Shown here in pieces: positions 5,714-48,463 of a stretch of DNA of 64,000 nt; the first letter of the stretch is position 1; every line of letters begins with the position of its first letter. The stretch is from Acidimicrobiales bacterium (GTDB lineage: Bacteria > Actinomycetota > Acidimicrobiia > Acidimicrobiales > MedAcidi-G1), in contig JASMLT010000003.1 of assembly GCA_030748555.1 (NCBI GenBank), positions 1 through 64,000 on the forward strand, written 5' to 3'. The notes under the pieces were generated by a model. That model worked only from the letters and a program-made list of their open reading frames with translations, was not told the origin of the DNA and searched no databases. The position numbers and the translations under genes were made by a program.

Positions 5714-6601
5714 TCAATATCCGAAACGGTCAAGCGACCGCGGATGCTTTTGCCAATCTTTTTCAACTTTCACTACTAATTCAATGAATGCTCCATCTTT
5801 TAGCTGTTTCCTTACCGCAGTTCCGACCTTTTTCAAAACTTCGCCTTTGTGCCCGATTACTATTCCTTTTTGCGAATTTCTCTCTACTAAGATTTCGCAT
5901 CGGATACGTGGCCAGTCCCACTCTGTAACTCGTGTTGCTATCGAATGTGGCAGCTCTTCACGAACTTCTGAAAGAAGTTGTTCCCGAACTAGTTCTGCAA
6001 CCCAAAAAGACTCAGAAAAGTCGGTTTCCATATTTTCAGGAAAGTAACGTGGCCCAGGAACCAGTTTTGTCTTGATATGTTCCAATAGTTCCGTGACTCC
6101 TTCTCCCGTTGAAGCGGAAATTGGGAAATACTCAGCAAAAGAGAAGTCTGAAGCTTCATTCAGTTGTGTCAAAATTCTACCGCTTTTGACTTTGTCTATT
6201 TTGTTAAGAACTAGAAGAGTTTTTTCAACTGGTAAAGATTCAGCGATAAACCTGTCCCCTTTACCAATTGCCGAATCAGCCTCTACTACAAAGAGAACCA
6301 AATCAATTTCCTTTAATGTGAAACGAGCAGTGTCATTCAATCTCGTACCCAGGAGAGTTCTTGGTTTATGAATACCAGGAGTATCGCAAAAAACGATCTG
6401 AAATTCAGAACCTGTAAGAACACCCCTTATCTCTGTGCGAGTTGTTTGTGGTTTATCCGAAACGATCGCTATTTTCTTTTTGAAAAAAGCATTTAATAAA
6501 GTTGACTTACCGACATTTGGCCTACCCACTAAGCTCACAAAACCTGAAATGTGGCCATCTGGCACTTCTATAGTTGGGTGGCTTTCTGAAATGTCATCCA
6601 T
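5714..6601 (-). CDS. era: GTPase Era
   Basis: GRPNVGKSTLLNA, DTPGIHKP, NKIDK, C-terminal KH domain (IVIGHKGEVLKKVG). Confidence 0.95.
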   Translation of the reverse strand: MDDISESHPTIEVPDGHISGFVSLVGRPNVGKSTLLNAFFKKKIAIVSDKPQTTRTEIRGVLTGSEFQIVFCDTPGIHKPRTLLGTRLNDTARFTLKEIDLVLFVVEADSAIGKGDRFIAESLPVEKTLLVLNKIDKVKSGRILTQLNEASDFSFAEYFPISASTGEGVTELLEHIKTKLVPGPRYFPENMETDFSESFWVAELVREQLLSEVREELPHSIATRVTEWDWPRIRCEILVERNSQKGIVIGHKGEVLKKVGTAVRKQLKDGAFIELVVKVEKDWQKHPRSLDRFGY

Positions 6602-13648: not shown

Positions 13649-15100
13649 ATGGGTTCTTATTTACTTGATAAGGAAAGTGAAGATCTGATTCTCGCAGTTG
13701 TAAAGAACGACTGCCCTACATGTCAGCTCTTAGTCCCGACACTTGAGAGCTTAGGGGAAGCGGGGAAATTAACTGTTGTGCTGCAGGACGAAATGGATTT
13801 TCCCTATGAGGCTGACTGGGTGCTGGATGACAGAGAATTGGAAATTAGTTGGAATTTGAATCTCGAATCTGTCCCTACTCTTTTACATTTTAAAAAAGGT
13901 GAAGAGGTTGAAAGAACTGTCGGGTGGTCACGCGAGGAGTGGCGTAAAATTACAGGAGATTCGACTCTTGGGGATGACCTTCCGGAATTTAAACCCGGTT
14001 GAGGTTCCCTTACTGTTGATCCCGGGAGGATCGACCAACTTAAATCAAAATTTGAAAATTCAGAATTCAATTCAAGACAAGTTGAGCTTGCTGCACAAGA
14101 AGATACTTACGAAGCCATGTTTGAAAGATCATGGACAGATGGACTGCCTGTAGTTCCGCCGACTAGGGGAAGAGTAAGAAAGATGCTTGAGGGAACGACC
14201 AGATCACCTGATGAGGTAGTCGTTTCAGTTCCTCCTAATTTGATCGAATGCAGTGTCGAAAAAATTGCAATAAATGCTGTCATGGCTGGCTGTAGACCTG
14301 AATTCTTGCCAGTGGTGATCGCTGCTCTGGAAACTATCTGCACTGAGGAATTTAACATGCACGGAGTTTTAGCTACAACGATGTCAGTCGGACCGATTTT
14401 TGTAGTAAATGGACCCATAGCACGTGATATTGGTATGAATTCTGGAATAAATGTCTTAGGGCATGGCAATAGGGCGAACAGCACTATTGGTAGAGCCGTC
14501 CAATTGGTAATTCACAATGTTGGTGGAGGCGGACCTGGGGGTGTGGATCGCTCAACTTTAGGTCATATGGGCAAACAGGGTTTTTGTTTTTCCGAGAACG
14601 AACTCTCTTCACCATGGCCATCACTTGCTGAAAGCCGTGGTTACAACTCGTCACAAAATGTCATAACTGCTTTCACGGGTGAAGGTCCACGACTGGTAAT
14701 GGATCAGAAAAGCAGAAAACCTGAGTCTCTGATACGTACACTTGCTGAACATTTGATTTCAACCGTCTCATCCAGAGTCGTTGTAGGCATGGATGCAATG
14801 CTTGTCTTGTCACCTGAGCACGCTGCTCGATTCTATGAAGCTGAATGGAGTAAGGAACGGTTTTTAGAAGAAATCACTGAGATCATGATGGTCGATACAG
14901 ACAATATAATTGCAGGGTCGGGCGGTATTGAAGAGGGACTTCCGGCAGAGATGAAAGGAATGAGCATTCCGAAATTTAGACCCAATGGTCTGTTACTTGT
15001 TCAGGCTGGAGGGCCCGCAGGACTATTTTCGGCGATAATTGGAGGGTGGCTTAATGGCCCCTCTGGAAGCGAACCTACTAGTAAGGAGATTTTACTGTGA
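13649..15100 (+). CDS. Selenoprotein candidate: thioredoxin domain (CPTC) fused through a Sec (PG-U-GS) linker to a DGLPVVPPT-type domain
   Basis: ORFs 13448..14002 and 14117..15100 are in one frame, separated only by UGA 14000-14002: ...VVKNDCPTCQLLVPTL...LPEFKPG[U]GSLTVDPGRIDQLKSKF...MFERSWTDGLPVVPPTRGRV... Alternative start at 13565. Confidence 0.82.
14015..14035 (+). promoter_or_regulatory. Candidate bacterial SECIS hairpin for UGA 14000-14002
   Basis: GUUGAUCC-CGGGA-GGAUCGAC: 8 bp (one U-G), 5-nt loop starting 20 nt after UGA. Confidence 0.65.
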
Positions 15101-15618
15101 CAGATGAAAAAGTTCTTCTCGATCCAACTTCTGAGAGTGTCCCTGCGGAAAGAAGCCTGTCAGAAAGACCCGAAACTATGGCTGGTCTGACGGTTGGATT
15201 ATTAGATATTTCTAAAGGGCGTGGAGACATTTTTTTGAATCGCCTTGAGGAAAAACTTTCTGATACAGGGATAGAAATACTTAGGTTCAAGAAACCTACT
15301 TTTACTAAACCTGCACCTGTGGATCTACGTCATGAGATCGCTACCAAATGTGATGCCGTGATCGAAGCTTTAGCTGATTGAGGTTCTTGTACGACATGCA
15401 GTGTGCATGACATAGATGATATTGAAAGAAGAGGAATACCAGCAGTCATGATTGCTTCTACCCCTTTCGAGGATGCCGCTCAGAAACAAGCTGACGCTCT
15501 TGGACTGGACATTGCAAGAGTATTTGTTCCTCATCCAGTTCAAGATAGAACAGACAAAGAAATGCATGAGATGGCCGACCTGGTATTTGAAAAAGTTTTG
15601 GACACTCTGACCAGATGA
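15097..15618 (+). CDS. UGSC-motif selenoprotein candidate (locus A)
   Basis: GTG start overlaps previous stop (GTGA). ORFs 15097..15381 and 15403..15618 are in frame across UGA 15379-15381: ...AVIEALAD[U]GSCTTCSVHDIDDIERRGIPAVMIASTPFEDAAQKQADALGLDIARVFVPHPV... Confidence 0.88.
15395..15409 (+). promoter_or_regulatory. Candidate bacterial SECIS hairpin for UGA 15379-15381
   Basis: CAUGCA-GUG-UGCAUG: perfect 6 bp, GUG loop starting 19 nt after UGA; possible lower stem UGU/ACA (15388-15390/15410-15412). Confidence 0.68.
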
Positions 15619-16535
15619 CAAGAAACGTTGCAGTAGCGCCGGATACAAGACCGGAGATGTACAAAATGATGTGCAATGCGGTTAAACGTTCTGGTGCGAC
15701 ATTGACTGGCGTGGAAGACGCAGAAGGTTTGATTTGGGCGGATCCTGCGAGGCCGGAACTCTTTCCTGAAATAGTAGAAACGGCAACTTTCCTCGAATGG
15801 ATACAACTTCCTTACGCTGGCATCGAACCCTTCGCCAATAATCTAGACCCCAAGTGGCGCTGGACATGCGGTAAGGGTGTTTATGCTCCCGCTGTAGCTG
15901 AGACAGTCCTTGCTCTCGCACTGTCTCTGTCCAAAAATTTACATGGATACGCCAGAGCAACCGAATGGTCTGGACCGATTGGCCGCTATCTGCACGGGTC
16001 TAATGTGACCATTCTTGGAGGAGGTGGCATAACCGTTGAACTTTTACCCCTTCTTGCTCCGTTTGATTGTGTCACGACAGTGATCAGAAAAAAAGCTGAG
16101 AATCTGCCGGGTGCCACGTTTACTTACACACCTGAAAAACTTGAAGAAGTTTTAGAAACAACCGATCTACTAATTCTCGCTTTAGCTTTAACTGAAGAAA
16201 CTAGGGGCATTATCGACAAAAAGGCTTTAGGTTTAATGCCTTCTCATTCCCACATAGTCAATGTTGCAAGAGGTGGGCACATAGTGACTGATGATTTAAT
16301 TGAGGCGCTTAAGGAAGGAAAAATTGCCGGAGCGGCTTTAGACGTCACAGACCCTGAACCTCTACCCGCAGGGAATCCTCTGTGGTCTGATCCGCGCTGC
16401 CTTATCACACCTCATATCGGCAACACTCCGGAAATGGGTTTAAAACTGCTTGATCCTTTCATTGAAGAAAATGTTCGACGGTTTATCAATAATGAGGAAC
16501 TTTTAGCACCTGTTGACGTTGAGCTAGGTTACTAA
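15615..16535 (+). CDS. D-isomer-specific 2-hydroxyacid dehydrogenase, NAD-binding
   Basis: ILGGGGITVELLPLLAPF, VNVARGGHIVTDDLIEALKEGKIAGAALDVTDPEPLP; ATGA overlap with the UGSC gene. Confidence 0.9.
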   Translation: MTRNVAVAPDTRPEMYKMMCNAVKRSGATLTGVEDAEGLIWADPARPELFPEIVETATFLEWIQLPYAGIEPFANNLDPKWRWTCGKGVYAPAVAETVLALALSLSKNLHGYARATEWSGPIGRYLHGSNVTILGGGGITVELLPLLAPFDCVTTVIRKKAENLPGATFTYTPEKLEEVLETTDLLILALALTEETRGIIDKKALGLMPSHSHIVNVARGGHIVTDDLIEALKEGKIAGAALDVTDPEPLPAGNPLWSDPRCLITPHIGNTPEMGLKLLDPFIEENVRRFINNEELLAPVDVELGY

Positions 16536-16907
16536 TTGGGTGCATGGGCTGGTTTTTTACTGGCGATCGTTTTTGTTTTTGCAGCAGTTAGTAAATTTCG
16601 TGATCCAACCGGGACTGAAAAATCCATTGCAGCCTTAGGACTTCCTTTCCCTAAATTTTTAGCCTCCCTGCTTCCATCTGTAGAACTTCTCTGCTCTGTC
16701 CTGTTAGCAATCGATCCTCGTTCTGGCGGACCTTGTGCTGTGGCTCTGCTTGTAGCTTTCACTACTCTTATCGCAGCTCAAATACTTTCTGGCAACCCTC
16801 AAGACTGCGCGTGTTTCGGATCTTGGTCTACTAAACAGATCTCTTCTTGGGACTTGCTGAGAAACATCGTTCTGATAGCACTCGGTGTTTTAGCAACACT
16901 CGACTGA
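16536..16907 (+). CDS. MauE/DoxX-like redox-associated membrane protein
   Basis: TTG start directly after previous stop; four hydrophobic segments and GNPQDCACFGSW motif. Confidence 0.75.
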   Translation: MGAWAGFLLAIVFVFAAVSKFRDPTGTEKSIAALGLPFPKFLASLLPSVELLCSVLLAIDPRSGGPCAVALLVAFTTLIAAQILSGNPQDCACFGSWSTKQISSWDLLRNIVLIALGVLATLD

Positions 16908-16977: not shown

Positions 16978-18600
16978 ATGGATGGTTTGATGATGGATGT
17001 TCCACTTTCTCTTAATCACATATTCGCCCGAGCGGAAAGACTCTTTCCAGAAAAAGAAGTTGTTACAGCGACTCCTTCCGGAAGGGAACGATTGAACTAT
17101 GGAGACTGGGCTAGACGAACGCGATGCCTTGGTGGGGTATTTGACGCTCTGGGAATAACTGACGACGGTCGTGTAGCAACTTTTGCTTGGAACAACTCAA
17201 GGCACTTGGAGCTGTATTTCGCTCCCTCGTGCACCGGACGCGTGGTCCACACACTGAACCTTCGTTTATTCCCTGATCAACTTACATACATAGTTAATCA
17301 TGCAGAGGACGAAGTTATTTTTATAGATCAGTCGGTCGCTGGTTTAATTTGGCCTTTAATGAACCAATTCAAGACTGTAAAACACGTCGTTCTAATGGAT
17401 GATGGTGCACCCGCTCCTGATCCTTCTGAAATTAATGCGAATGTTCATGACTATGAAGAATTATTGCAAGCTGCTGAACCTGTGGAATGGAAAACAGTTG
17501 AAGAAAACCGTGCCGGATCAATGATGTATACATCAGGAACTACTGGCAATCCAAAGGGTGTTGTTTATTCACATCGTTCAATGGTTCTGCATACATTTGG
17601 TGTGATGATGGCAGACACTATAGGGATTAATGAGAAAGATGTCTTGATGCCAGTCGTTCCAATGTTTCACGCTAATTCTTGGGGTATTGCTCATGCAGGT
17701 GTTGCAACCGGCGCAACTCTGGTGATGCCTGGCGCAGATCTTTCCCCCACTGCTTTAGCAGCACTTATAGAAGAGGAGAAAGTTACGGTAGCAGCCGGTG
17801 TTCCTACCATTTGGATGGGTGTCTTGCCGGAGCTGAAAGGGCGTGACACATCTGCCCTGCGTTCAATACCGTGTGGTGGTTCAGCTGTTCCTAAATCCCT
17901 CTCAGAGGGATACCGAGAGCAGACAGGTCTTCCCATCCTGCAAGCTTGGGGAATGACGGAAACCAGTCCGATTGCTGCTGTGTGTAATATTAAATCAACT
18001 CTTTCTCATCTTGATGAGGATGCCAAGGCAGATCTCCGTGCAACTGTTGGACTTGCAGTGCCCGGAGTTGATTTCCGTGTTGTTGAACCGGAAACCGGAG
18101 AAGAACTTCCGTGGGACAATGAATCTCGTGGAGAACTGCAAGTCAGAGGACCATGGGTTGCGAAAACCTACTACAACGATGAGAGAGCTAATGATTCCTT
18201 TACCAAAGACGGGTGGCTCAAAACTGGTGATGTAGCAACTGTTGATTCAAACGGCTATATCAGTCTTGTCGATAGAACCAAGGATTTGATCAAATCAGGT
18301 GGCGAGTGGGTAAGTTCAGTCGAATTAGAAAATGAAATTATGGCCCATCCAGAAGTTGTTGAAGCGGCTGTGATTGGGGTTGCTTCAACAAAATGGGGTG
18401 AACGTCCCATGGCCTGCGTTGTTCGTTCTGAAGATTCTCAAATTTCTGCCGAGGATGTAATCTCTTGGCTGGACGACCGTGTTGTTAAATGGTGGATCCC
18501 TGAACGCGTCGAATTCATTGAAGAAGTTCCAAAAACTTCAGTTGGAAAGTTCTCCAAGAAAACACTCAGAGATCAGTTTTCAGATGTGATTGTTGATTGA
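16978..18600 (+). CDS. Long-chain fatty-acid--CoA ligase (AMP-binding)
   Basis: MMYTSGTTGNPKGVVYSHRSM, GWLKTGDVATVDSNGYISLVDRTKDLIKSGGEWVSS; AAGGAGGG upstream. Confidence 0.93.
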   Translation: MDGLMMDVPLSLNHIFARAERLFPEKEVVTATPSGRERLNYGDWARRTRCLGGVFDALGITDDGRVATFAWNNSRHLELYFAPSCTGRVVHTLNLRLFPDQLTYIVNHAEDEVIFIDQSVAGLIWPLMNQFKTVKHVVLMDDGAPAPDPSEINANVHDYEELLQAAEPVEWKTVEENRAGSMMYTSGTTGNPKGVVYSHRSMVLHTFGVMMADTIGINEKDVLMPVVPMFHANSWGIAHAGVATGATLVMPGADLSPTALAALIEEEKVTVAAGVPTIWMGVLPELKGRDTSALRSIPCGGSAVPKSLSEGYREQTGLPILQAWGMTETSPIAAVCNIKSTLSHLDEDAKADLRATVGLAVPGVDFRVVEPETGEELPWDNESRGELQVRGPWVAKTYYNDERANDSFTKDGWLKTGDVATVDSNGYISLVDRTKDLIKSGGEWVSSVELENEIMAHPEVVEAAVIGVASTKWGERPMACVVRSEDSQISAEDVISWLDDRVVKWWIPERVEFIEEVPKTSVGKFSKKTLRDQFSDVIVD

Positions 18601-43241: not shown

Positions 43242-44033
43242 TTAGACACTTGGTGGCCTCTCACGTGACAAATAGGCACCTGCATCGGCTAAAAACAACT
43301 GACCAGTAATATTTTGGGCAAAATTAGAAGCTAAAAAAACGGACAGGTATCCCAAGTCTTCGATATCACTCATTTTTCTCAATGGATTTGATTGTTGTAT
43401 GGCCGAAATTCGATCATCGTCGAAAAAATCTGCAACTGTTTCAGTCAAGGTTGTGCCTGGAGCGATTGCTAGAACCCTTATACCCATGGGCCCTAATTCC
43501 ACTGCCGCTGTCTGAGTTAGATGATTTATTCCTGCTTTAGCCGCACCATAACCCGCCAAGAACGGACTAGGTCTTGTAGTTTCACCTGAACTCACATTGA
43601 TAATTACCCCGCTTCCCGACTCACTCATATGTTTTGCTGCTGCCTTCATGGATAAGGCTGTCACTAAAAGATTTTGTTCAATTACATCCCTCCATTTTTT
43701 CTCATCCATTTCCAATAATGGAGCAGTCCCCTCTGGTCCTAGCATTCCAATATTGTTAACTGCTATATCAATCCCCCCAAGTTTCTCCGAAGACTCGTCA
43801 AACATTCTTTCAATCTGACCCTCTTCGCGAGCGTCACCGACAACAGAACAATGTGATCCTTGATTTAAAGCAGTCAACATTTCAACAGTTTCCTGTGCCT
43901 TGTCGACCCTCTTGTCCAAAACAGCAACACTCGCTCCAGCTTGGGCAAACAGGGATGCTATAGAGCGTCCTATTCCTGCGCCAGCACCTGTTACAACAAC
44001 ATTTTTTCCCGAATGGTCGATTTCAATTGACAA
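43242..44033 (-). CDS. SDR family oxidoreductase
   Basis: VVVTGAGAGIGRSIA, AVNNIGMLG, GYGAAKAGINHL. Confidence 0.92.
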   Translation of the reverse strand: MSIEIDHSGKNVVVTGAGAGIGRSIASLFAQAGASVAVLDKRVDKAQETVEMLTALNQGSHCSVVGDAREEGQIERMFDESSEKLGGIDIAVNNIGMLGPEGTAPLLEMDEKKWRDVIEQNLLVTALSMKAAAKHMSESGSGVIINVSSGETTRPSPFLAGYGAAKAGINHLTQTAAVELGPMGIRVLAIAPGTTLTETVADFFDDDRISAIQQSNPLRKMSDIEDLGYLSVFLASNFAQNITGQLFLADAGAYLSRERPPSV

Positions 44034-44034
44034 A

Positions 44035-44568
44035 TTAGATCTCCAATACTTTCAACAAATCATCCAAAGCGGACTCGATCCAACTCATGATAACCTCTTC
44101 TTCCGTGCCACCCAGAGGGTGTGGGACTACCACAATTCTCGCTTTTGGCATTCCTAAGCTACTGGCAGCGGAACGAGTTAACTCTTTAAACTTTTCTGTA
44201 GTGAAAACAACGGCTGGCACTCCTGCTTTTTCAATTTCAATCAAATCGTGGACACTCCACGAAGTACAAGATCCTCAATCGGCTGAACCGGTTAACACCA
44301 ATTGAACTTCTTCTGCAAGCATTCCAATAACTTGAGGATTGCATGCTGTAGCAGCATTAGCCCTTTCACCTTTCCCGGTGGTCACCGAAAACTTTGCATC
44401 AATTCTCCCTGCGAGTCCTTCAGCGATCTTTGTTAGTAACAAATCAGCATTTGGTTTACCGTTTTCGAGAACCCCTATTTTACCACCAGAGAATAATGGT
44501 GTAGTTGAACACAACTCAACCGCCTCATCCATTAACTCACCTTCAGGACTGTGAATCTTCATATTCAT
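44035..44568 (-). CDS. UGSC-motif selenoprotein candidate (locus B)
   Basis: ORFs 44275..44568 and 44035..44244 are in frame across UGA 44277-44275: ...EEVQLVLTGSAD[U]GSCTSWSVHDLIEIEKAGVPAVVFTTEKFKELTRSAASSLGMPKARIVVVPHPLGG... Confidence 0.88.
44246..44262 (-). promoter_or_regulatory. Candidate bacterial SECIS hairpin for UGA 44277-44275
   Basis: UCGUGGA-GUG-UCCACGA: perfect 7 bp, GUG loop starting 19 nt after UGA. Confidence 0.72.
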
Positions 44569-44589
44569 AGATTAGACCTCCCACTCCAT

Positions 44590-45642
44590 TTATATTGGAA
44601 CTGTCACACTTCGAGTCATTCCCCAGCTTGGTACTACACATGAATGCTTTCCAGCACCTCCACTTACTAGGACTTTGATATTTTCAACCTCTTGAGTCAT
44701 CGGGACTAACTCATCATCTGAAAGTGAATGCATCCAATCTGCCCACGCTAATAAGTTGAACTGTTCTCTGAAGCGGCCAGCTGGCATTCTTGCTTTCTCA
44801 AACAAGTAATTGGAAACATCTTCCCTGCTCCAACCTTGACTAGATGCCGTAGCGGCGTGTTCGGGGCAAAGGATAACGAACCATTCACCACCGGATATGC
44901 AAGCATTATTGACTCCAAAAGTCGTCATAGCCGAAGCAGCCTTATCAAGTATTCTCTCAATGTTTTCTGACTCCATGTCATGAAAATTGTGTGGGTTTTC
45001 TCCGCAATGCACAGTAAGTGCGCTGTCTGAATCAACTCCAAGCGTTACCGGATACGAATCCCAAGGGTTTTCCTTTTGATTCTCTGCAATGCAATAGGTG
45101 TACTTCGAAGGTTGGCCTTGTGTGGAAGCATCACCAGGACCTGGTGCCGCTCCTGCAATATGCAACAAGACAAGTCTTATCGCCCTTCCTACCGTTGCAT
45201 TTGCTCTATTACCGGGTCCAAATACCCCTAAACCGGAGTTAAAACCAAGTTCATCTACCACTTTTCCATGAACTATCAATAAAGGAGCAACAGGATGAGT
45301 TGTCGTGTTCACTCCACGCAAATTAATCCTTTGATTACCTAAAGCTTTTACAGCTGCAACAACAACAGGAAAATATTCAGGTTTGCAACCCGCTAAAACG
45401 GCATTAACTGCTACGGATCTAAAAGTTGCTGAGCCTCCTCGTGGCGGAAGAACTGTCAGCACTTCTTCTGGTGAAACCTCTATGTGACTAAGCATTTCAT
45501 TCACACGTTTATCCGTTGGTGCCACCAGTGGCAGACCATCCCCCCAACCATGTTTCTCAAATAATTCATAGATAGTGTCTGGGTCTTCATCTGGCAATTC
45601 AAGAAACTGTCTTCGACTTTCCATTCCAATATTCTCGCCCAT
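44590..45642 (-). CDS. DGLPLVAPT-type protein, UGSC partner (paralog of the C-terminal domain of 13649..15100)
   Basis: WGDGLPLVAPTDKRVNEML...VAVNAVLAGCKPEYFPVVVAAVKAL...GFNSGLGVFGPGNRANATVGRAIRLVLLHIAGAAPGPGDASTQG. Confidence 0.85.
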   Translation of the reverse strand: MGENIGMESRRQFLELPDEDPDTIYELFEKHGWGDGLPLVAPTDKRVNEMLSHIEVSPEEVLTVLPPRGGSATFRSVAVNAVLAGCKPEYFPVVVAAVKALGNQRINLRGVNTTTHPVAPLLIVHGKVVDELGFNSGLGVFGPGNRANATVGRAIRLVLLHIAGAAPGPGDASTQGQPSKYTYCIAENQKENPWDSYPVTLGVDSDSALTVHCGENPHNFHDMESENIERILDKAASAMTTFGVNNACISGGEWFVILCPEHAATASSQGWSREDVSNYLFEKARMPAGRFREQFNLLAWADWMHSLSDDELVPMTQEVENIKVLVSGGAGKHSCVVPSWGMTRSVTVPI

Positions 45643-45701: not shown

Positions 45702-46817
45702 TTAGTTTCTTTCGCCAAAGTAACTTAAGTGCGTTGCTCTATGACTTTGACCATCTCTGCTCTCTGCGTTGAAATCACGGCCAGCATCTTTACTTGAAAT
45801 TAATGCTAACCCTAAATTTCCTTCCATGGCGGGTGACCATGCCGCTACGCGTATTTCCCCGATCTTATTTCCTGATTCATCAAATGCTGCCCATGGTTCT
45901 TCAGTTGGCGAAGCGAGAGGTTCGCCTGACAATAGAATCTTCACCAATCTTCTTGTGGGACCTCTGCTTTTTTCCGCTAGTAAGGCTTCTTTCCCGATGA
46001 AATGCTCATCTCTTTCCAAGTTCATGAAACGATCCAGACCCAACTCCAAAGGAGTCGCTGAAGCTCCACAGTCGGTCCTATATGAAAGCAATCCGCTTTC
46101 TATCCTTTCGACCGCATTGGGAGTGCCTGGGTGAATACCGTATCGTAAACCAGAATTCCAGACCCTTTCCCAAAGGTCTATCCCCTTTGAGCCGTCAGTT
46201 AGAAATAATTCAAATCCTCCTTGCCCACTCCACCCCGAACGACAAATTATGAATGGGATGTCGTCCAATTGTGTTTCCATAAAACCAAAGAAAGGTATAT
46301 CCATAACCCAATCTCCGAGTAAATCAACCATGGTTTGATCAGCCTTCGGCCCTTGAACTGCCAAAGGTGAAACTTCTGGTTCGAAGACACTGCAATTGAG
46401 GTTTCTTTCAGAACTTACAGCTTGAGCCCATAACAGAAGGTCACCATCTGCAATTGAAACCCAGTAACGATCGTCTCTTAAACAAAGTGTTATCGGATCG
46501 TTAATAAGAATTCCTTGATGGTCACAAATTGGCGTGTAACGAGCTCTGCCCTCCTTGCATGACCTCATTCCCCTAGTTGATAAATACTCAACCAGTTCAA
46601 GGGCATCAGGGCCCACTATCTCCACTTGACGCTCGCAACCTACATCCCAAATAGAAACCTTTTCAGTTAATGCCTCATATTCAGCAGTTGGATTACCGTA
46701 TGAAGTCGGCATATACATATGGTTGTAAATAGAAAATTGCTTAACTCCGTGTGAAATCGTAGCTTCGAAAAAAGGTGACTTTCTGACTCTTGAACCGATA
46801 GCAATTTCGCTGGTCAT
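45702..46817 (-). CDS. GcvT-fold aminomethyltransferase, DmdA (DMSP demethylase)-like
   Basis: GSRVRKSPFFEA...YNHMYMP...IWDVGCERQVEIVGPDALELVEYLSTR...ICRSGWSGQGGFELF...VERIESGLLSY resembles recalled DmdA motifs. Confidence 0.72.
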   Translation of the reverse strand: MTSEIAIGSRVRKSPFFEATISHGVKQFSIYNHMYMPTSYGNPTAEYEALTEKVSIWDVGCERQVEIVGPDALELVEYLSTRGMRSCKEGRARYTPICDHQGILINDPITLCLRDDRYWVSIADGDLLLWAQAVSSERNLNCSVFEPEVSPLAVQGPKADQTMVDLLGDWVMDIPFFGFMETQLDDIPFIICRSGWSGQGGFELFLTDGSKGIDLWERVWNSGLRYGIHPGTPNAVERIESGLLSYRTDCGASATPLELGLDRFMNLERDEHFIGKEALLAEKSRGPTRRLVKILLSGEPLASPTEEPWAAFDESGNKIGEIRVAAWSPAMEGNLGLALISSKDAGRDFNAESRDGQSHRATHLSYFGERN

Positions 46818-46819
46818 TT

Positions 46820-48463
46820 CTATTTATCTCCTTTGTGTTTATAAACAGGTGAGTCATCTGCTGCTAAGGGAGTGTTACCCAATATAAGGTCTGCTGCCTT
46901 CTCGGCAAGCATCATAACTGGTGCATAAATATTTCCGTTAGTGATGTTAGGCATGACAGAGGCGTCTACCACTCTCAACTGATCCGTTCCATGGACTCTC
47001 ATGGTTGAAGGGTCTACAACCGCCATGTGATCTGTTCCCATTCGAGCGGAACAGGATGGGTGAAGCGCAGTCTCTGAATCCTTTTTAATCCAATTCAAAA
47101 TCTCGTCATCTTTTTCAATATTCGACCCAGGAGATATCTCTCCCCCATTGAACTCCTCAAAAGCTGGCTGGCTCATTATTTTCCGAGCAACACGAATAGC
47201 CTCAACCCATTCTTTTTTATCTTCTTCAGTGGAAAGGTAATTAAATCTAATTGACGGCTTTTCAAAAGGGTCATTTGTTTTTATTTTGATACTTCCGCGG
47301 CTATCAGAAAACATCGGCCCTACGTGAAACTGGTAACCGTGACCTGAAACCGGAGTACTTCCGTCGTATCTGATAGCAATAGGTAAAAAGTGGAACATCA
47401 GATTTGGCCATTCAACTCTTTCATTTCCTCTTACAAAACCCCCTGCTTCAAAATGGTTAGTTGCACCTGGGCCTTTTCTCAATAACCACTGAAAAAAAAC
47501 CAAAGGTCGTCTCCACACCTTCAAGTAGGGTGACATGGATACAGGTTTTTTGCAGGCGTACTGGACATAAACTTCTAAGTGATCCTGTAAATTTTCACCC
47601 ACGCCAGGAAGGTCAATCAATGTCTCTACACCGGCTTCCTCGAGGGTTCTAGCTGGACCCACTCCTGATAGTTGTAGTAGTTGTGGAGTGTTTATAGCAC
47701 CTCCGCAACAAATTACTTCACCTGCTGTGCTGGTTTTATTGCGCCTGTCTTTCATGAACTCGACCCCGACCGCCTTGTTGCCATCAAAAATTATTTTCGT
47801 GACATGAGCTCTTGTTATGACATCTAAATTTGGCCTTGAGGCAACAGGGTGTAAATAAGCAACTGAAGCAGAGTTTCGTCTCCCCCTGTAAATATTTCGG
47901 TCAAAAGAAGCGAACCCCTCTTGGCGGTATCCATTCACATCTTCAGTTATTTCATAACCGGCTTCCTGCACTGCATCAAAAAAGGCTCCAAATAAAGGAC
48001 TCTCAGCAGGTCCTCTTTCCAGCATTAACGGGCCACTGCCCCCTCTGTACCGGTCTACCCCATGGAGACAAGTCTCCATTCGTTGGAAGTAAGGCAAACA
48101 GTGTGAATAACTCCACTGTCTGCAACCTGGTGTTGCAGCCCAGCGTTCATAATCGGCAGGATTGCCACGTTGAAAAATCATGCCGTTGATACTTGAAGAA
48201 CCCCCCAACACCTTCCCTCTGGCATGAGACACTCTTCTACCTTCAAGTCCTGGCTCGGGGTCAGATTCATACTTCCAATCGTAAAACTTGTTGCCTATGC
48301 CGTATGAAAGTGCTGCAGGCATATGAATTACGAAATCCCATCGATGGTCTCGCCTTCCCGCTTCCAGCAAAAGGACTTTTACATTACTGTTTTCACTTAA
48401 ACGATTTGCGAGCACACACCCTGCTGAGCCTCCGCCAATGATAATTACGTCATAATTACTCAT
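46820..48463 (-). CDS. GMC family (choline dehydrogenase-like) oxidoreductase
   Basis: [56 protein letters not shown]. Confidence 0.93.

Follow-up and report, generated by a model that had tools for sequence, protein, structure and literature searches.

A gene interrupted by an in-frame UGA raises the question of whether it encodes a selenoprotein and, if so, to what kind of enzyme it might belong. Such a gene is found in the 64,000-nucleotide stretch of DNA analysed here (the window), which comes from a marine actinobacterium. Direct translation confirmed that, as the first-pass annotation had stated, the open reading frames at 15097..15381 and 15403..15618 of the plus strand share one frame with a single TGA between them (15379-15381). 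Readthrough of this codon in the gene spanning 15097..15618 (locus A; GTG start, TGA stop) gives a 173-aa product, ...AVIEALAD-U-GSCTTCSVHDIDDIERRGIPAV..., in which the recoded codon is residue 95. The gene overlaps both neighbours by 4 nt (GTGA at 15097-15100 and ATGA at 15615-15618), also as described. A change of the genetic code was rejected because TGA is the ordinary stop of neighbouring genes, as at 18598-18600 and at the end of this gene itself, which agrees with the earlier view of a local recoding. The name 'UGSC family (seleno)protein' given in the first-pass annotation was correct: the readthrough protein matched NF041046 (159 bits over residues 30-172, cut-off 125) and PF24696 (147.6 bits), and carries the same U-G-S-C motif as the family. 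The UGSC family is already known but functionally uncharacterised, and the cited UGSC literature gives no function, obligate partner or second selenocysteine (Sec). To this family the present analysis adds a second selenoprotein, an almost obligate partner and a resemblance to the reductase subunits PrdB and GrdB.

The codon at the Sec position was compared among homologs. Of 81 genomes of relatives, 62 gave UGSC matches, more than 100 in total, and almost every match contains exactly one in-frame TGA; together with the model scores, this shows that the readthrough frame is no accident. Positions C95, G96 and C98 were invariant in an alignment of 35 homologs in which U was treated as C, and U-GSC is present in both UGSC copies of the window (locus A and locus B, described below). 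The column itself held TGA in homologs, TAG in two Geodermatophilaceae and Cys in a few; across homologs L094-L173 it was TGA wherever readable, with the exception of Blastococcus and Geodermatophilus (TAG). A tRNA-Sec with anticodon CUA, together with UGSC-motif selenoproteins, has been reported in Geodermatophilaceae (PMC5330540).

Downstream of the UGA of locus A, a SECIS-like hairpin with an apical GUG was located at 15395..15409 (+), beginning 16 nt past the initial U of that codon. All three in-frame UGAs considered in the window have a hairpin at +15/16, the other two being located at 14015..14035 (+) and 44262-44246 (−), and their single-sequence z values against dinucleotide shuffles were not significant. 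Across homologs, the 30 nt at +13 were compared in stability with versions of each gene in which synonymous codons had been drawn at random. Mean z was −2.40 for UGSC genes with UGA (n=100) and about 0 for two Cys UGSC genes, these z values not being probabilities because related sequences are not independent. In a scan along the gene with non-redundant UGSC sequences (n=54), the peak was found at +12 (mean z −2.07). The hairpin after the UGSC UGA is thus as expected of a bacterial SECIS and exceeds the synonymous-codon controls.

The Sec machinery was searched for in the metagenome-assembled genome (MAG) that contains the window, which consists of 73 contigs and is 69.9% complete. Of the four components proposed for this search in the first-pass annotation, only selD was recovered (G000:C22:68972-69895, minus strand); it has itself an in-frame TGA (GAGUGCK) and encodes a Sec-containing selenophosphate synthetase, whereas selA, selB and tRNA-Sec were absent from this MAG. 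The incompleteness of the assembly would explain these absences. A selB candidate (206 bits) turned out to be EF-Tu, located in an rpsL-rpsG-fusA-tuf operon, and weak tRNA-Sec matches corresponded to tRNA-Gly, tRNA-Leu, tRNA-Trp and others. Among eight congeners, selA and selB were found in all eight and tRNA-Sec, above 60 bits, in seven. In addition, the presence of UGSC was associated with that of selA in the 81 relatives (57/5/8/11, Fisher p 1.5e-5), and selA and selB lay near the operon in 9 and 10 of 80 named loci, respectively. Altogether, the family models, the codons of the homologs, the SECIS-like hairpin, the selA and selB genes near the loci, the Sec-type selD of the MAG and the Sec machinery of congeners strongly support Sec insertion at this UGA, and hence a UGSC-family selenoprotein encoded at 15097-15618.

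Analysis of the gene upstream revealed a further in-frame UGA that the first-pass annotation had missed. The open reading frame at 14117..15100 runs back in frame through a TGA at 14000-14002 into a thioredoxin-like domain with a CPTC motif (13649..13996, +), whose PDB fold matches are thioredoxins. The complete gene would extend over 13649..15100 (+), with an inferred start codon in a frame open from 13448, and its product has the layout thioredoxin, PG-U-GS (PG-U-GSLTVDP in the window) and a 330-aa domain that we call DGLP (14117..15097, +). No Pfam or NCBIfam model matched DGLP at E below 0.1, and in plasmid records the domain is annotated, where at all, as 'hypothetical protein'. An alignment of DGLP homologs showed invariant D-G, P-T, GC, R, D and E positions. 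Sequence searches of the PDB with DGLP and UGSC profiles gave nothing credible; a fold search with the AF2 model of the upstream protein (mcc8609ccd527, pLDDT 87.8) returned matches that, in all 50 of the 50 listed, cover the thioredoxin domain only. No useful match came from scanning the window against Rfam.

The PG-x-GS column is occupied by TGA in the congeners whose locus reached the site and by Cys in order-level relatives and most of the 80 named loci. The Blastococcus and Geodermatophilus loci (L115 and L172), with TAG at 6362-6364 in the UGSC column, have Cys here. Three changes between U and C were seen on a DGLP tree (93 sequences); on one reading, Sec would have been gained in the clade of the window and a second time in L162, a betaproteobacterial MAG, with a reversion in L152. 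The hairpin at this site is present in UGA forms and not in Cys forms: mean z in the 30 nt at +13 was −1.19 for PGUGS genes (n=22) and −0.04 for PGCGS genes (n=71). With non-redundant sets, the scan along the gene gave a peak from +6 to +12 for PGUGS (n=12; −1.06 and −1.05) and no peak for PGCGS (n=64; mean z about 0). The sequence itself thus identifies the gene upstream of UGSC as that of a predicted second selenoprotein, one that is cut short by standard gene calling.

A second DGLP-UGSC pair, absent from the first-pass annotation, was found on the minus strand at 44035-45642 (locus B). Its UGSC gene (44035..44568) has a UGA at 44277-44275 and scored 122.4 bits against NF041046 in the genome search, just under the cut-off of 125; its DGLP partner (44590..45642) has neither the thioredoxin domain nor PG[U/C]GS. 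Both genes are flanked, on the same strand, by conserved neighbours: an SDR dehydrogenase directly downstream of UGSC (43242..44033) and, upstream of DGLP, a GcvT/DMSP-demethylase-like methyltransferase (45702..46817) and a choline-dehydrogenase family gene (46820..48463; betA 809 bits, cut-off 732), with conservation of the latter two across several family genomes. The complete order GMC - GcvT-like - DGLP - UGSC - SDR is kept in several family genomes, and DGLP - UGSC - SDR in more. At locus A, the UGSC gene is followed by a D-2-hydroxyacid dehydrogenase-like gene (15615..16535, +), which overlaps it by 4 nt and is conserved in a congener locus (L089), and by a gene for a MauE/DoxX-type membrane protein (16536..16907, +).

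The association of DGLP with UGSC extends well beyond the window. A survey of 247 actinobacterial genomes, almost all of them 90% complete or better, found DGLP in 21 and UGSC in 21, with both in 20 and each alone in one (Fisher p 3e-27). Furthermore, the two are joined in a single chain in one genome (G059; Cys form, L081), the frame runs on from U-GSC into DGLP in L079 and L090, and fused UGSC-DGLP proteins occur in Sporomusa and Vibrio (L206:6398-8122 and L207:6431-8116). A passage of PMC2398784 reports a fusion of UGSC with a domain termed 'Unknown_1', which is probably DGLP. These data strongly support, at the level of gene content and sequence, that DGLP and UGSC form an almost obligate pair of co-inherited subunits. 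The unit is larger than the first-pass annotation had proposed, as it comprises two adjacent selenoproteins that probably act together as a single thioredoxin-driven Sec enzyme.

In the AF2 model of UGSC (pLDDT 94.8), five strand-helix units are seen, and the Sec lies where a strand passes into a helix. The predicted fold is flavodoxin-like, (beta-alpha)5, and places the Sec in a loop at a helix N-terminus, in contrast with the thioredoxin-like fold that had been guessed for UGSC in PMC2398784. A PDB fold search returned generic flavodoxin-like matches only (TM about 0.45). In profile comparisons by hhalign with PrdB-like and GrdB proteins from actinobacterial genomes, UGSC matched PrdB-like proteins with E 1.9e-5 and GrdB with E 4e-4, at modest probabilities of 78% and 35%, and Sec was aligned to Sec. 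The GrdB model was matched, weakly, by 17 of 35 UGSC members at E below 0.01; the locus A protein scored 26 bits against TIGR01917, far under the cut-off of 602, and UGSC gave no match to PF07355. With the PrdB/GrdB proteins (PF07355, TIGR01917, TIGR04483), UGSC shares the place of the Sec, a strand AVI(L), the U loop and a helix ending in E-R-x-GIP-x-V, and in some operons a thioredoxin system stands next to the DGLP-UGSC pair. On the other hand, UGSC is devoid of the N-terminal half of GrdB, and no relation between DGLP and the GrdB profile could be detected. That GrdB-type Sec enzymes can diversify towards another C-X bond is illustrated by the fluoroacetate reductase FarEB, a GrdB-like dehalogenase (PMC10838667); it differs in coming from an anaerobe and in having GrdB and GrdE homologs, and UGSC is not mentioned in that report.

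With regard to the electron donor, trxB or trxB-trxA lies beside the DGLP-UGSC pair in three plasmid operons: the gene order is trxB-trxA-DGLP-UGSC in Arthrobacter ERGS1:01 and DGLP-UGSC-trxB in Roseovarius THAF8, and in Variovorax SRS16 trxB is close to DGLP and a Cys-form UGSC. In Haloterrigena, a TrxB-like gene is located immediately 3′ of DGLP. In the other genome-derived loci tested, trxB was not detected beside the pair. Plasmid pFER4 of Paracoccus ferrooxidans carries a UGA-split UGSC gene annotated as two hypothetical proteins (L213:5450-6019), which adjoins DGLP and has selB about 4 kb away. In haloarchaea, the neighbours of the copies are CoA-transferases, CoA ester lyases and transporters of the TRAP or tricarboxylate type, and no shared substrate emerged from the neighbourhoods of the distant subfamilies.

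On balance, the reading that we favour is that of a two-subunit, thioredoxin-driven Sec reductase acting in small-molecule catabolism. UGSC and DGLP would form one enzyme of the chemical type of proline and glycine reductase, in which DGLP would hold a small substrate for attack or reduction by the Sec of UGSC. The U-x-x-C centre, once oxidised, would then be re-reduced by the thioredoxin domain of the partner, the PG-U/C-GS residue serving as a relay, or, where the thioredoxin is unfused, by separate TrxA/TrxB, and different paralogs might serve different small-acid or osmolyte catabolic pathways. Both the chemistry of a reductase and the role of the second Sec as a relay are inferred here. 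The locus B partner, with no fused thioredoxin, counts against the reductase reading, as do the modest hhalign probabilities, the loci in which no trxB was detected beside the pair, the lack of detected kinship between DGLP and GrdB, the Met-form fusions described below and the missing selA, selB and tRNA-Sec of the MAG. More tentatively, DGLP-UGSC could be an undescribed enzyme family that stands next to the glycine and proline reductases as a third branch of the Sec/Cys reductases, two-subunit and thioredoxin-driven, distributed among bacteria (including aerobes) and haloarchaea and acting on varied substrates. The clade of the window would then have moved Sec into a second position, in the PG-U-GS relay on the thioredoxin side. 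The fixed partner, the second Sec, the inferred electron donor and the related enzyme family make these proposals testable with the two proteins and TrxA/TrxB.

The fused thioredoxin and the U-x-x-C motif would also suit an antioxidant or detoxifying thiol/selenol peroxidase, or a disulfide reductase, instead of a catabolic reductase, and a passage of PMC2398784 assigns redox roles to most uncharacterised selenoproteins. We consider this unlikely, since the UGSC model does not predict a thioredoxin fold, the neighbours are mostly catabolic and uptake genes (CoA-transferases, CoA ester lyases, TRAP/tricarboxylate transporters, choline dehydrogenase), and varied substrates are suggested by the paralogous UGSC matches, of which a single genome has as many as ten. 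The Sporomusa and Vibrio fusions bear on another alternative, as Met occupies their Sec column (DMGTS) and their genes stand beside those for aconitase X and DUF126. DGLP-UGSC might accordingly act as a lyase, an isomerase or a dehydratase built on a Rossmann-like scaffold, with Sec/Cys used for binding of metal or substrate and redox activity being secondary; nearly all other homologs, however, have Sec or Cys, thioredoxin is fused or trxB/trxA adjacent, and UGSC resembles Sec reductases, which leaves this alternative quite improbable. Because of that Met, the fusions also warn that not every branch is redox-active through the residue at the Sec column. A pseudogene or a sequencing error at 15379, conceivable in a 73-contig MAG, has a negligible probability, given that congeners and members of other phyla share this TGA, that Geodermatophilaceae have TAG in its place, and that the frame is intact and has the 4-nt overlaps, so that the earlier claim that this is not a decayed gene holds.

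The genome of the window also contains a PrdB-like PF07355 match of 27 bits (G000:C43:451-789, minus strand). In actinobacterial PF07355 PrdB-like proteins (L188-L198), the match ends just before an in-frame UGA (PxU-P-x-C); automatic calls therefore probably truncate these actinobacterial proteins.
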